From Hydrotalea sandarakina (GTDB lineage: Bacteria > Bacteroidota > Bacteroidia > Chitinophagales > Chitinophagaceae): a stretch of 64,000 bases of DNA. Below, one piece after another: positions 23,232 through 56,352 of the stretch; positions within the stretch are counted from its first letter, which is position 1, and every line of letters starts with the position of its first letter. The stretch covers positions 403,585 to 467,584 of the forward strand of contig NZ_QKZV01000001.1 of NCBI RefSeq assembly GCF_003254115.1. Direction: 5' to 3'. The position numbers and the translations under genes are program-made. The notes beneath the pieces are model-generated. The model did not search any database. It was given only the letters and a program-made list of their open reading frames with translations, and was not told the DNA's origin.

Positions 23232-24197
23232 TTAATAATCTCTTTGAATGAGAAATGCGGCTATATCTTTTAAATGTTTTTTTCGTGAGCTTTGAACAGC
23301 AACTTCTTCTAAATGATACATTGCTTTATTCAAATATTCTTCTTTTAAAGCTTTGGCCCATTCAGGTACACCACATTCACGAAATAGTTGAATAACAGTT
23401 TCAACTTTATTATCAGCATTGTTATTCATAGCATCGTTCAGCTTTAGTTTTTGTGCATCTGTAGCTACCTCTAATGCCCGAATAAGCAAAGCTGTTTTTT
23501 TATTTTGTTTAATATCGCCACCAATTTCTTTACCAAATTTTGCAGCATCGCCAAAGGCATCCAAATAATCATCCTGTATTTGAAAAGCAATGCCCAAATT
23601 TTTCCCGAAAGCATATAAATGTTTGCTGCTTCCTTCACTGGCACCACCTATAATTGCACCCATTTCTAAACTGGCTGCTAATAAAACAGATGTTTTTAGT
23701 TCAATCATTTTTATATAATCATATAAATCAATGCGATTATCTTGCGCATAATCCATATCTAATTGTTGACCTTCACAAACTTCTACAGCTGTTTTATTAA
23801 ACAAATGCAAAATATTTTTCAAATATTCCGTTTGAATATTTTCTAAATATTGGTATGCTTTTATCATCATTACATCGCCTGATAATAAAGCAGCAGTATT
23901 ACCGTACTTAGTATGAACAGTAGGTTTGCCTCTGCGCAAATCAGCTTCATCCATAATATCATCATGAATTAAAGTGAAGTTGTGAAACAGTTCAATTGCT
24001 GTTCCCACTTTATAAGCATCTTCATGAATTTCACCAAACAATTCATTACCCATTAAACAAAAAACCGGTCGAATTCTTTTGCCGCCTAACTGAAGAAAAT
24101 ATCGACAAGGGTCATATAAGTTTTTAGGTAACGTTGGCAGTTGTTGTGCTGAAAAATAATTTCCAAACAATTCAGTAAGTTGTTCAAATGTATGCAT
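23232..24197 (-). CDS. Polyprenyl (farnesyl/geranylgeranyl-type) diphosphate synthase
   Basis: 321 residues, a trans-isoprenyl diphosphate synthase. The first aspartate motif is DDIMD inside FTLIHDDIMDEADLRRGKP, and the second is QIQDDYLDAFGD. The N-terminal LGGKRIRP binds the allylic substrate. A phenylalanine five residues before the first motif limits chain length, suggesting C15-C20 product rather than the long quinone tail, but this is inference. Products would feed undecaprenyl, carotenoid or menaquinone synthesis. It could also supply substrate to the class I isoprenoid-like enzyme at 53594-54604. The gene stands alone. Confidence 0.93.
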   Translation of the reverse strand: MHTFEQLTELFGNYFSAQQLPTLPKNLYDPCRYFLQLGGKRIRPVFCLMGNELFGEIHEDAYKVGTAIELFHNFTLIHDDIMDEADLRRGKPTVHTKYGNTAALLSGDVMMIKAYQYLENIQTEYLKNILHLFNKTAVEVCEGQQLDMDYAQDNRIDLYDYIKMIELKTSVLLAASLEMGAIIGGASEGSSKHLYAFGKNLGIAFQIQDDYLDAFGDAAKFGKEIGGDIKQNKKTALLIRALEVATDAQKLKLNDAMNNNADNKVETVIQLFRECGVPEWAKALKEEYLNKAMYHLEEVAVQSSRKKHLKDIAAFLIQRDY

Positions 24198-52409: not shown

Positions 52410-53585
52410 TTATGTAAGTTGTTCAAAGATATGCTGTAACACTTTTATTTCCTGATTTGTAGTGGAAGAATTTTTAAAGCTTTTCCACTGCTGAATTTCT
52501 TTTAAAGCCTGTTCAATGGAATACTTTTTTTCAATGCCAAATGAAAAATGTGGGAAATGACGCGGCAATAAACCTGCTCCAAATACATTGCAAGCAATGC
52601 CGATAGCTGTTGCAGTGTTAATAGACGCATTAATGGCAATACGGGTATAATCGCCCATTAACACACCACATTTTTGCACAGGGGTACTGTACTTTTTTAG
52701 GCTATCATTCCAAACAGTAACCTGTTCACCACTATTTTTTATATTACTGTTACTGGCACCGGCCCCAATATTACACCAGTTGCCAATAATACTATCGCCT
52801 AAATATCCATGATGTGCTTTATTACTAAAATCCATGATTATACTATTTTTTACTTCCCCCCCTACTGTGCAATTATTACCTATGCATGTTCCGCCATAAA
52901 TTGTTGATCCCATTTTAACCACAGAATTTTTGCCAACAACAATGGGGCCACGTAAAAATGAGCCTTCCATAATTAAAGCATTATCTGCAATATATATTGG
53001 CCCATCAGCAGCATTCAGACTCACATTTTTTACTGTTGCTCCGGAAGCAATATGAATAGCTTCAGTATTTTCAACATAATTAGAAGGATGGATGATATTG
53101 TTTTGCTGTTTAGCAATAACAAATTGAAAATCGGATGCAATAATAGCAGCATTTTTAGCAAGCAAATCAATGGCAGAATTAATACAGATTAACGTTCCAT
53201 TGAAAGGAATATTTTTTTCAGAGGTACTAATTGAATTTGTGTTAAAATAAGCTTTTGCTTCTTCTAAATTACCTCTATAGGCAATTTTTTCTTTTGCATA
53301 AATTAAACCCTGCTGTTTTGATAATTGTTGCAGAGAATTGATTAATTCCATATTAGGCAATACATTCGCAGCAACAAAAACAGCTTCGGGTTGTGTTGGT
53401 GGTTCATACAAAGCCGATAAATAATCAATGGTTTGAATATAAACCTTAGTACCTGTTAATTTTTCCCATCGCTCATACTGGGTATAAATGCCATACCGTA
53501 AGTCAGCGATAGAATGATTTACAGAAAAAGGATAAAATTCATCTCTCCATGTTGCATCATCAAATAAAACTATGGGTAAATTCAT
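52410..53585 (-). CDS. GlmU-like protein: degenerate sugar nucleotidyltransferase with a hexapeptide-repeat domain
   Basis: 391 residues. The N-terminal half (MNLPIVLFDDATWRDEFYPF) resembles the NTP_transf_4 sugar nucleotidyltransferase fold but shows no clear GXGTRM nucleotide loop, so it may not be active. The C-terminal half (about 170-330) is a left-handed beta-helix with isoleucine/valine-led hexapeptides (GSFLRGPIVVGKNSVVKMGS, CIGNNCTVGG), like the GlmU acetyltransferase. It may add acetyl or acyl groups to a sugar, or regulate sugar-nucleotide synthesis. It follows the isoprenoid-like gene by eight bases, so they are cotranscribed. Confidence 0.82.
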   Translation of the reverse strand: MNLPIVLFDDATWRDEFYPFSVNHSIADLRYGIYTQYERWEKLTGTKVYIQTIDYLSALYEPPTQPEAVFVAANVLPNMELINSLQQLSKQQGLIYAKEKIAYRGNLEEAKAYFNTNSISTSEKNIPFNGTLICINSAIDLLAKNAAIIASDFQFVIAKQQNNIIHPSNYVENTEAIHIASGATVKNVSLNAADGPIYIADNALIMEGSFLRGPIVVGKNSVVKMGSTIYGGTCIGNNCTVGGEVKNSIIMDFSNKAHHGYLGDSIIGNWCNIGAGASNSNIKNSGEQVTVWNDSLKKYSTPVQKCGVLMGDYTRIAINASINTATAIGIACNVFGAGLLPRHFPHFSFGIEKKYSIEQALKEIQQWKSFKNSSTTNQEIKVLQHIFEQLT

Positions 53586-53593
53586 ATGTACAT

Positions 53594-54604
53594 TTAATTC
53601 AGTGAGTAGCCTTCTAACATAAACAAACTAATCCATCGTTTTCTGTTTTTGTATAATTCCATGTCAATCACCAAATCCTTTCTACTAAGTTCAGTAAAAT
53701 TTGGAAGCTTCTTTCCATATTTTTCTGCTACTTTTTCCAATTGTTCAATAGCCAAAAAACCTAAACAATACACTGCTGCTAAGGTATAATTAAAAAAACG
53801 TTTATTTCTCGGATTGGCTTTTACTTCACGGATGGCATTCTTCAGAAGTTGTACTTGATTGTTATACGCAGTTTTAATATCTGTAACCGAATCGGAATGA
53901 TTAGCAAAAGTATAAATTCCGGCACGACTGTCTTTAAATGTATCAAACAAATCATTAATCATTTGTATTATGGTGCCTAATAAATACCAACATTTTTTTT
54001 CTGCTTCACTACCCACAACTTGCAGATAGTAATAGCACATTAAAACGGCATATCCGCCTTTTCGATGGGTAATTGACAGTAACGTTTCAGTATCAATATC
54101 AGCATTAAATTGTAAAAGAGAATCTTTTTGTGCTGTAAACATATGCTCAAATAAACTCAGGTAATCGGTTTTATTATTTACCCTTGCCAATAAATAACGA
54201 TGAATGGATTGAATTAACATCTCATCTAATGTTTTCGGCATATAAGCATCACCCAAAAAAGTTAGCTTTTCTATTGTTTCTACACTCATTTCATGATGAT
54301 CAAAAAAATCATCATACATCGAGGCCATTACAAAATAATAAACCAACAATTTTTGTTCTTCTTGTGAAGTAAATCTTTTATGTAATTGGGTGAAAGCATC
54401 ACAAACAATGGGATTATAAATTGCAAAACTTGTAATTGTTTTTTTTCTGACTTTTTCACTAACGGTATGGCAATAATTTTTTTCAATTTCTGTTATGGTA
54501 GTTTGGGCAAATTGTTTTGCCTTACGCCTACTAATGATAAAATGCGTTACTATTCTAAAAACGATTGGTAAGGATGCTATGTATGGCCTAAAATTTTTCA
54601 CCAT
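53594..54604 (-). CDS. Putative class I isoprenoid / terpene-synthase-like enzyme
   Basis: 336 residues, helical, mostly soluble, with no signal peptide although residues 7-25 are hydrophobic. Residues 98-102 read DDFFD, the first aspartate-rich motif of class I isoprenoid enzymes. Residues 217-225 (NDLFDTFKD) resemble the NSE/DTE metal motif, and R181 in HRKGGY lies between them, where the pyrophosphate-sensing arginine is found. Overall similarity to known terpene cyclases or squalene/phytoene synthases is too weak to pick a reaction. The gene leads a leftward cluster with a GlmU-like gene, tpiA and the hemerythrin gene. A prenyl diphosphate synthase is encoded elsewhere in the window (23232-24197). 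Confidence 0.7.
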   Translation of the reverse strand: MVKNFRPYIASLPIVFRIVTHFIISRRKAKQFAQTTITEIEKNYCHTVSEKVRKKTITSFAIYNPIVCDAFTQLHKRFTSQEEQKLLVYYFVMASMYDDFFDHHEMSVETIEKLTFLGDAYMPKTLDEMLIQSIHRYLLARVNNKTDYLSLFEHMFTAQKDSLLQFNADIDTETLLSITHRKGGYAVLMCYYYLQVVGSEAEKKCWYLLGTIIQMINDLFDTFKDSRAGIYTFANHSDSVTDIKTAYNNQVQLLKNAIREVKANPRNKRFFNYTLAAVYCLGFLAIEQLEKVAEKYGKKLPNFTELSRKDLVIDMELYKNRKRWISLFMLEGYSLN

Positions 54605-54720
54605 TTACAAAGAAACTATTATTTAGCATACTATTTATACTTAACATGAACAATGCCTTTTGTTACTTATTAAACAAAACAAGTTTAGTAACTTGCACTT
54701 TCATTATAAAACCAAGCACC

Positions 54721-56352
54721 ATGAGTTTAGGCACATTTCATTATCCAATGCCGGCAAATGAACCGGTTTTACAGTATGCACCCGGTAGCAAAGAAAGGGA
54801 ATTACTAAAAAAAGCAATAGCAGAATTAAAGGCACAAACAGCCGATATACCCATGTATATTGGTTCAAAAGAAGTAAAAACCAATAAAAAAATTGCTTTA
54901 CATCCGCCCCATGAAATAAAACATACTTTGGGCTATTTCCATATGGGCGATGAAAAACATGTTCAACAAGCTATTGATGCTGCATTGGCTGCTAAAAATG
55001 ACTGGGCAGCTATGCCTTGGGAAGACAGAGCCGGCATTTTTTTGAAAGCAGCCGATTTACTGGCAACAAAATATCGTCCTTACATTAATGCAGCTACTAT
55101 GCTTGGCCAAAGCAAAAATGTTTTTCAAGCTGAAATTGATAGTGCCTGCGAATTGATTGATTTTCTACGTTTTAATGTTCATTATTTAAGTGAAATATAT
55201 AAGCAACAACCCAATAGTGCGCCGGGAATGCATAATCGTATGGAATACAGGCCATTAGAAGGATTTGTGGTAGCAGTTACCCCTTTTAACTTTACGGCTA
55301 TTAGCGGCAATTTACCAACTTCGGCTGCCATGTGTGGCAATGTGGTAGTATGGAAACCCGCCAATACCCAGGTATTTGCAGCACAAATGTTTATGCAAAT
55401 ATTGCTTGAGGCAGGATTGCCTCACGGCGTTATTAATTTAATTTATGTGGATGGGCCTGTTTTAGGTAAAATTTGTTTTAACCATCGCGATTTTGCCGGT
55501 GTACACTTTACCGGTTCAACCGGTGTATTTAACACAATGTGGGAAACAATTGGCAAAAACATGGCGAATTATAAATCTTATCCACGTATTGTTGGTGAAA
55601 CCGGTGGTAAAGATTTTGTTTTAGTACATAAATCTGCCGATGTTGATGTAGCCGTTACTGCATTATTACGCGGTGCTTTTGAATATCAGGGACAAAAATG
55701 CTCTGCTGCTTCTCGTGCCTATATACCATCTAATTTGGCAGAAAAAATAAAGAAGAAATTAATAGCGGGGGTAAATAGTTTTAAAATGGGATCGGTAGAA
55801 GATTTCTCCAATTTTATTAATGCTGTTATTGATGAAAGAAGTTTTGATAAAATCAAAGCTTACATTGATGGCGCTAAGCGTTCAAAAAAAGCAAGTATTT
55901 TAGTGGGCGGGGAATGCAGCAAAAAAGAAGGATATTTTATTCAGCCTACCATTATATTGGCAGAAGATCCCAAGTATGTTACTTTATGTGAAGAAATTTT
56001 TGGCCCCGTACTTACTTTGTATGTATATCCTGCCAATGAATTTGAAGAAGTATTGGAATTAGTTGACACCACTTCACCTTATGCACTAACCGGTTCTATT
56101 ATTGCTAAAGATCGCTCTGCCATTGTACTGGCAACTGAACGATTAAGAAATGCTGCCGGTAATTTTTACATTAATGATAAACCCACCGGTGCAGTAGTTG
56201 GTCAGCAACCCTTTGGCGGTGCAAGGGCAAGTGGTACAAATGATAAAGCGGGAAGTATTTTAAACTTATATCGCTGGTTAAGTGCCCGTACTATAAAGGA
56301 AACATTTAACCCACCGGTTGATTACGGATATCCATTTATGCAGGAACCCTAA
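54721..56352 (+). CDS. pruA: L-glutamate gamma-semialdehyde (1-pyrroline-5-carboxylate) dehydrogenase
   Basis: 543 residues from the ATG at 54721 (MSLGTFHYPMPANEPVLQY). The frame extends to 54646 but that part is not homologous to the family. It is the single-function PruA, an aldehyde dehydrogenase that oxidises glutamate semialdehyde to glutamate with NAD+. The Rossmann-loop region is FTGSTGVFNTMW, the catalytic Glu is in GETGGKDFVLVH, and the catalytic Cys is in GQKCSAASRAY. No proline dehydrogenase domain is fused. It completes the ornithine to glutamate route begun by rocD at 27025. A strong terminator follows. Confidence 0.95.
   Translation: MSLGTFHYPMPANEPVLQYAPGSKERELLKKAIAELKAQTADIPMYIGSKEVKTNKKIALHPPHEIKHTLGYFHMGDEKHVQQAIDAALAAKNDWAAMPWEDRAGIFLKAADLLATKYRPYINAATMLGQSKNVFQAEIDSACELIDFLRFNVHYLSEIYKQQPNSAPGMHNRMEYRPLEGFVVAVTPFNFTAISGNLPTSAAMCGNVVVWKPANTQVFAAQMFMQILLEAGLPHGVINLIYVDGPVLGKICFNHRDFAGVHFTGSTGVFNTMWETIGKNMANYKSYPRIVGETGGKDFVLVHKSADVDVAVTALLRGAFEYQGQKCSAASRAYIPSNLAEKIKKKLIAGVNSFKMGSVEDFSNFINAVIDERSFDKIKAYIDGAKRSKKASILVGGECSKKEGYFIQPTIILAEDPKYVTLCEEIFGPVLTLYVYPANEFEEVLELVDTTSPYALTGSIIAKDRSAIVLATERLRNAAGNFYINDKPTGAVVGQQPFGGARASGTNDKAGSILNLYRWLSARTIKETFNPPVDYGYPFMQEP

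Follow-up and report, generated by a model that had tools for sequence, protein, structure and literature searches.

A putative non-canonical class I terpene synthase in Hydrotalea sandarakina with a class II cyclase-like protein as a frequent companion of its family

Non-canonical terpene synthase classes IB to IF have already been described; among them, class IB carries the motifs DYLDNLXD and DY(F,L,W)IDXXED, and the class ID enzyme PeuTPS has a third motif, RXXKD, 48 residues past its ND motif (PMC11234867). The class IB enzyme YtpB makes tetraprenyl-beta-curcumene, which SqhC cyclises (PMC8144471). In the drimenol synthase AsDMS, Asp331, Asp333, and Tyr427 are each essential, and Tyr373, Arg378, and Tyr426 are needed for diphosphate recognition (PMC12365925). 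Here, we compare with these systems a gene product, P0001, that is encoded in a 64,000-nucleotide stretch of Hydrotalea sandarakina DNA (the window). We give roughly even chances to the reading that P0001 is a catalytically intact class I terpene synthase and that, in a large part of its family, the product is then cyclised by a class II-like partner protein.

The P0001 open reading frame comprises 336 aa with an ATG start, and its coordinates had been given correctly in a preliminary description, which nevertheless missed its minus-strand orientation; read on the plus strand, this interval has stops throughout. The relevant features are as follows (positions are those of the window, unless stated otherwise).

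53594..54604, minus strand: P0001, class I isoprenoid-fold enzyme and proposed non-canonical terpene synthase (from the ORF and its translation, the AlphaFold2 fold, structure matches, and family conservation)
54299..54313, minus strand: first metal motif, DDFFD, residues 98-102; family form D(D/N/E)xxD (from the conservation of D98 and D102)
53930..53965, minus strand: second metal motif, QMINDLFDTFKD, residues 214-225; family form QxxNDxxDxxKD (from the conservation of Q214, N217, D218, D221, and D225)
54059..54061, minus strand: K182, proposed instead of the earlier R181 as the base that senses the diphosphate (from conservation; putative function)
53660..53683, minus strand: C-terminal RKDLVIDM, residues 308-315 (conserved R308 and D314; putative role)
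52410..53585, minus strand: NTP_transf_4/hexapeptide (GlmU-like) gene downstream of P0001, starting 8 bases past the P0001 stop
54646..56352, plus strand: aldehyde dehydrogenase (PruA-like) gene, divergent from the P0001 gene, a conserved syntenic neighbour
23232..24197, minus strand: polyprenyl diphosphate synthase (PF00348) in the window, a possible supplier of substrate
about 333.3-334.4 kb on the same contig, outside the window (L202:7286-8470): own-genome copy of the partner, 394 aa

The P0001 gene is present as a single copy in its own genome, and its closest relatives, Hydrotalea flava among them, share 61-63% identity. The GlmU-like gene occupies an equivalent position in many relatives, where it is probably a syntenic neighbour only. 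The aldehyde dehydrogenase, GlmU-like, TIM, uracil-DNA glycosylase, and acyltransferase neighbours were considered as a pathway and rejected, since they look like shared synteny; some genomes were entered twice in the locus counts for these conserved neighbours. In 11 loci, mostly from Chitinophaga (L159, L116, L117, L127, and others), the family gene is preceded, directly upstream and in the same orientation, by a UbiA-type prenyltransferase gene. Promoter and terminator scans gave a signal no better than that of shuffled sequence, and neither the family protein nor the partner was found in the plasmid records searched.

A scan of genome contigs with P0001 alone returned zero relatives, and a motif-pattern scan came after it. 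By six-frame search, family relatives occur at 103 places in 99 of 294 Chitinophagaceae genomes (42 of 101 genera). An alignment termed A1 holds 70 of these places, which were not selected by motif, and leaves out two short pieces from one genome (G116, locus L055) as well as 31 other places. Ten residues, namely E83, D98, D102, Q165, K182, Q214, D218, D221, D225, and D314, are invariant in 70/70 A1 members, with N217 in 69/70 and R308 in 68/70. The same ten are found in 119/119 of a widened set of distinct homologues that includes P0001, where N217 occurs in 118/119, K224 in 112/119, R308 in 117/119, and K or R at position 55 in 118/119. The sequences from named species in this widened set and in alignment A3 were gathered through the motif patterns IQ[LM]xNDL[FY]D and KGG..., a selection that biases both towards the motifs, so the counts to rely on are those of A1. 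Motif conservation in A1 exceeds chance. Against three Hydrotalea-type relatives, dN was 0.28-0.32 and dS 1.9-2.6, which is near saturation; the low dN at near-saturated dS therefore points to purifying selection, and the P0001 gene is intact and constrained. Two loci with unusual copies were seen: genome G055 (L066:8849-10906) has two tandem family copies adjoining the partner gene, and G116 (L055:7599-11442) has broken family copies, one of them with an in-frame TGA.

Both motifs named in the preliminary description, DDFFD at residues 98-102 and NDLFDTFKD at 217-225, are present at those residues. For the first of them, D98 and D102 are indeed invariant, although position 99 varies (D in 86, N in 19, and E in 9 of 119), so that DDFFD is one variant of the family form. 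Likewise, the arginine at 181 that was noted between the motifs exists, but it is not a conserved base (R in 41/119); the neighbouring position 182 is K in 119/119, and K182 would be the better candidate for diphosphate sensing. The second motif reads Q..(N/D)D..D...D in 119/119 members, and the strict NSE/DTE pattern, (N/D)Dxx(S/T)xxxE, occurs in none of the 119 vs 21/26 local terpene synthases. The form QxxNDxxDxxKD is fixed rather than degenerate, being half prenyltransferase (DDxxDxxGD) and half NSE (NDxxSxxKE). An asparagine at place one and a lysine at place eight of this motif are terpene synthase traits.

Compared with canonical bacterial terpene synthases (PF19086), the family shares the class I fold, a D(D/N)xxD first motif, a C-terminal arginine, and, in the second motif, N at 1, Lys at +7, and an acidic residue at +8; it differs in having NDxxDxxKD where they have NDxxSxxKE and K182 where they have a sensing arginine. 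R308 could play the part of the RY arginine found at the C terminus of terpene synthases. With the trans-polyprenyl diphosphate synthases (PF00348), it shares the fold, the QxxxDxxDxxxD shape of the second motif, and a lysine preceding a Gly pair, whereas the first Asp of their second motif is an Asn in the family. The IPP-site sequences are also missing: RRG after the first motif occurs in 0/119 family members vs 25/30 local polyprenyl synthases, and GKRxRP in 0/119 vs 14/30. Loss of the IPP site is an argument against chain elongation, and P0001 is presumably not a chain-lengthening prenyltransferase.

Profile comparisons place the family at a distance from all described groups. P0001 itself matched no Pfam or NCBIfam model above cut-off, including PF19086, PF00348, and PF00494, so mining by such models would miss it, and phmmer against the PDB gave chance-level matches only. 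With the 70 members as queries and among the 25 of 36 Pfam families listed, the best were PF00348 and Terpene_synth_C (E 0.0021); among the matches listed, PF00348 was hit weakly by 8/70 members (best E 0.0021) and PF00494 by 3/70 (best E 0.026), and the best NCBIfam match of the 70 was an unrelated family (E 0.0015). The family profile retrieved 1rtr_A by hmmsearch at E 0.074. In hhalign, the family aligned with terpene synthases at a score of 31.4 (12% probability, 159 columns, both metal motifs in register), with polyprenyl synthases at 23.5, and with phytoene synthases at 16.6, the best of 27 controls reaching 22.3. For scale, polyprenyl vs terpene synthases scored 27.8 (5% probability), and the distance between the family and terpene synthases is therefore similar to that between polyprenyl and terpene synthases. 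An assignment to the squalene/phytoene synthases (PF00494, two DxxxD motifs) was rejected, as its score lies at control level and P0001 has no Pfam match to it.

Class IB and the family have in common a top Foldseek match, second-motif acidic residues at i, i+4, and i+8, and, in the case of YtpB, a proposed pairing with a class II cyclase, but class IB (YtpB/BalTS; 6loo, 5yo8) has other motifs and only 9-11% identity by structure. Consistent with this difference, position 218, the place of the class IB Tyr, is Asp in 119/119, and the class IB motifs are absent. PeuTPS of class ID likewise shares D(N/D) and ND motifs and, like the family, is non-canonical and lies outside gene clusters; it differs in that the family has K and D directly after ND, and RXXKD is absent at the conserved R308, position 311 being Leu in 54 and Met in 13 of 70. 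We take P0001 to represent a new subclass among the non-canonical class I terpene synthases, set apart from IB and ID by their published motif descriptions. A literature search, with subscription journals mostly outside its coverage, found no description of the family, and the subclass apparently spans Chitinophagaceae and some other Bacteroidota. The NCBI pipeline presumably labels such proteins 'class 1 isoprenoid biosynthesis enzyme'.

The fold of P0001 was predicted by AlphaFold2 from a 76-row family alignment with a pLDDT of 95.8 and a pTM of 0.93, and contains helices only; a single-sequence model (pLDDT 42.4) was discarded. The best PDB match in Foldseek was the class IB terpene synthase 6loo (E 5.4e-4), with dehydrosqualene synthase next. 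VIA-align ranked MoeN5 first (Z 18.0, 244 aligned, 3.2 A, 9% identity), aligned 6loo at Z 16.7 (268 aligned, 4.0 A), and placed bacterial diterpene synthases and polyprenyl synthases at Z 15-16.4. All 50 of the 50 matches listed are terpene synthases or prenyltransferases (Z 15.2-18.0), and they exceed the Z of ∼14 that is warned of for helical bundles. On this model, the fold is settled as an all-alpha class I isoprenoid synthase, in agreement with the earlier suggestion that this is an isoprenoid enzyme of class I whose reaction is uncertain, while the Z values of 15-18 lie too close together to settle the subfamily. The fold and the motif alignment together suggest that both metal motifs would face one cavity. 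The N-terminal helix has a hydrophobicity of 1.79 in P0001 (family median, 1.23) vs 0.45-0.54 in other class I groups, which would suit a membrane lipid as substrate.

Beyond the family, in relatives from the genome group f14, the first motif is kept as DDFFD in L345, reads DDFFE in L346, and is lost in L348, and L345-L347 have an Asp for the Asn of the second motif (IDD or MDD). Three of these four relatives thus have altered or lost metal residues, though their genomes hold the partner. The preliminary description had regarded homologues that do not conserve the DDFFD residues as telling against an isoprenoid enzyme; this was seen in part, and only among distant relatives outside the family. 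Longer distant relatives (413-420 aa) with KGG(S/T)SVL and (I/V/L)DDxxD motifs were also seen at L350:6203-7441, L351:6733-7992, and L352:6203-7441; they are perhaps another undescribed class I group.

The association with a class II cyclase-like protein, of which the preliminary description made no mention, emerged here from co-occurrence. The partner is an unannotated protein of ∼390 aa, with no Pfam match in four members searched one at a time; across 51 members, the matches were weak and to unrelated models only. Scored by single-sequence search in the 294 Chitinophagaceae genomes, it accompanies the family in 50, while 49 have only the family, 10 only the partner, and 185 neither (Fisher p 4e-19, in a test that ignores shared ancestry). 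By genus, the corresponding numbers are 26, 16, 1, and 58, so that 26/27 partner-bearing genera also carry the family. The partner lies within 200 bases of the family gene in 23 of the 50 genomes with both, and in Chitinophaga sp. SYP-B3965 (L154:6962-9067) the two form one 702-aa ORF, an apparent fusion that is possibly an error, because it comes from one draft genome. In the H. sandarakina genome, the partner lies ∼123 kb from the P0001 gene, between an acyl-CoA dehydrogenase gene and a YggS-like gene, a setting that recurs in relatives. Of 395 genomes sampled across the phylum, 11 have the family, 16 the partner, and 7 both, with at most five and four candidates scored per genome, respectively. 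Outside Chitinophagaceae, the partner occurs in 4/4 family-bearing f14 genomes and in none of the other four with family matches, three of these eight family matches being weak (E 5e-8 to 2e-13); the 'outside f1' test took out only the 14 listed f1 genomes.

To characterise the partner, its profile was searched against the PDB at E values up to 10, and the sole match was drimenol synthase (9mhs_B, E 0.0075), a weak one whose best stretch has an i-Evalue of 0.12 and which has a gap just before Y373. With a small class II set, hhalign gave 52.6 (84%), while none of 27 control families exceeded 32.8 (14%), and the register places DDxDDT of the class II set over a VSDCTAE stretch of the partner. 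D147, D149, and Y259 of the partner are invariant in 51/51 and align with D331, D333, and Y427 of AsDMS (a chain offset of +10 fits the numbering of the paper at F328, D331, D333, Y373, R378, R380, R425, Y426, and Y427). The partner shares with the TC-beta domain of AsDMS an aligned catalytic DxD and Tyr and, presumably, a single beta domain, and, from its sequence, it looks like a one-domain class II cyclase. Unlike AsDMS, it has no HAD domain, and its profile has W, P, and H at the places of Y373, R378, and Y426; the lack of these diphosphate-recognition residues suggests a substrate free of diphosphate. A crude hydropathy measure identified a strongly hydrophobic, signal-peptide-like start in 45/51 Chitinophagaceae partners, and in 2/9 outside homologues it was also above threshold, so the partner seems to be exported in Chitinophagaceae, which is odd for a terpene cyclase. 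Two of the outside homologues (L356:7042-8109 and L359:6993-8060) have DxDCT instead of DxDDT, reminiscent of oxidosqualene cyclases.

In the two-step model that we prefer, Mg2+ would be held by D98/D102 and N217/D221/D225, assisted by K182, K224, and R308, and the class I enzyme would pull the diphosphate off a polyprenyl diphosphate, with the resulting cation being quenched or cyclised inside the helical bundle. Across much of the family, the product, now free of diphosphate, would then be protonated and cyclised by the partner, a logic like that of YtpB followed by SqhC in Bacillus, but reached via different protein families. Several observations count against this model, namely the 49 of 99 family genomes without a partner match, the distance between the two genes in the H. 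sandarakina genome, the weak similarity to terpene synthase profiles, the weak PDB match and apparent export of the partner, and the metal-residue changes in f14. A more tentative version, which we hold to be possible but doubtful, is a two-compartment route, in which the cytoplasmic class I enzyme would make a diphosphate-free lipid from a long polyprenyl diphosphate and the exported one-domain class II cyclase would close the rings on the periplasmic side, giving a hopanoid-like lipid in Bacteroidota from protein families that are not known for making one.

The incomplete overlap between the two genes bears on a rival explanation, that P0001 is a class I terpene synthase acting alone and that the class II-like protein belongs to another pathway, lineages and neighbourhoods being shared by descent. 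It is favoured by the family-only genomes, by the 10 of 60 partner-bearing genomes without a family match, by the wide separation in the H. sandarakina genome, and by the separate conserved neighbours that each gene has; we nonetheless consider it unlikely, given the frequent adjacency, the apparent fusion, the near-complete presence of the family in partner-bearing genera, and the co-occurrence that extends to f14. Quite unlikely, too, is that P0001 resembles MoeN5 in function as well as in fold, as a prenyltransferase whose acceptor for the polyprenyl group is not IPP, rather than a cyclase. MoeN5, a head-to-middle prenyltransferase, is its top structural match, the second motif and the KGG stretch after it resemble polyprenyl synthases (from the 1rtr_A match and the hhalign register), more distant relatives have DDxxD second motifs, and the UbiA-type gene adjoins the family gene in the loci mentioned above. 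However, Z scores of this size hardly separate isoprenoid subfamilies, the MoeN5 match comes with 9% identity and without a moenomycin lipid context around P0001, and no acceptor-modifying gene is found among the conserved neighbours; moreover, the second motif is half NSE, with its K224 and N217, and the hhalign score is higher for terpene synthases than for polyprenyl synthases, the latter being near the best control.

The order of the two steps might also be reversed, with the class II-like protein cyclising a diphosphate and the class I enzyme then ionising the cyclic diphosphate, as in the bacterial and plant CPS-KS systems. In fused bacterial enzymes, class II is known to act before class I (PMC11469919), and the substrate of drimenol synthase, which the partner resembles, is FPP; but the replacement of the AsDMS diphosphate contacts by W, P, and H, together with a signal-peptide-like start that would keep most Chitinophagaceae partners from cytoplasmic diphosphates, makes this order improbable. 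A degenerate relative without catalytic activity, an option left standing by the preliminary description, might have a structural or regulatory role, and it would account for the replaced NSE serine and glutamate, the motif residues lost in some distant relatives (L348), and the broken copies in G116. For P0001 and the 70 A1 members, it finds no support in the ten invariant residues, which are mostly acidic and in metal motifs, or in the purifying selection on the P0001 gene, and we regard it as very improbable indeed.

Under the preferred two-step reading, the company that the family keeps with the class II-like gene suggests that both may jointly build an undescribed ring-shaped lipid. As Pfam searches of the H. 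sandarakina genome gave 0 matches to PF19086 (canonical terpene synthase) and 0 to PF13243 (squalene-hopene-type cyclase), the family protein and the partner are the best candidates for making a cyclic terpenoid in this organism. If the pairing is true, class I and class II enzymes would have been combined independently a second time into a route to a polycyclic lipid.
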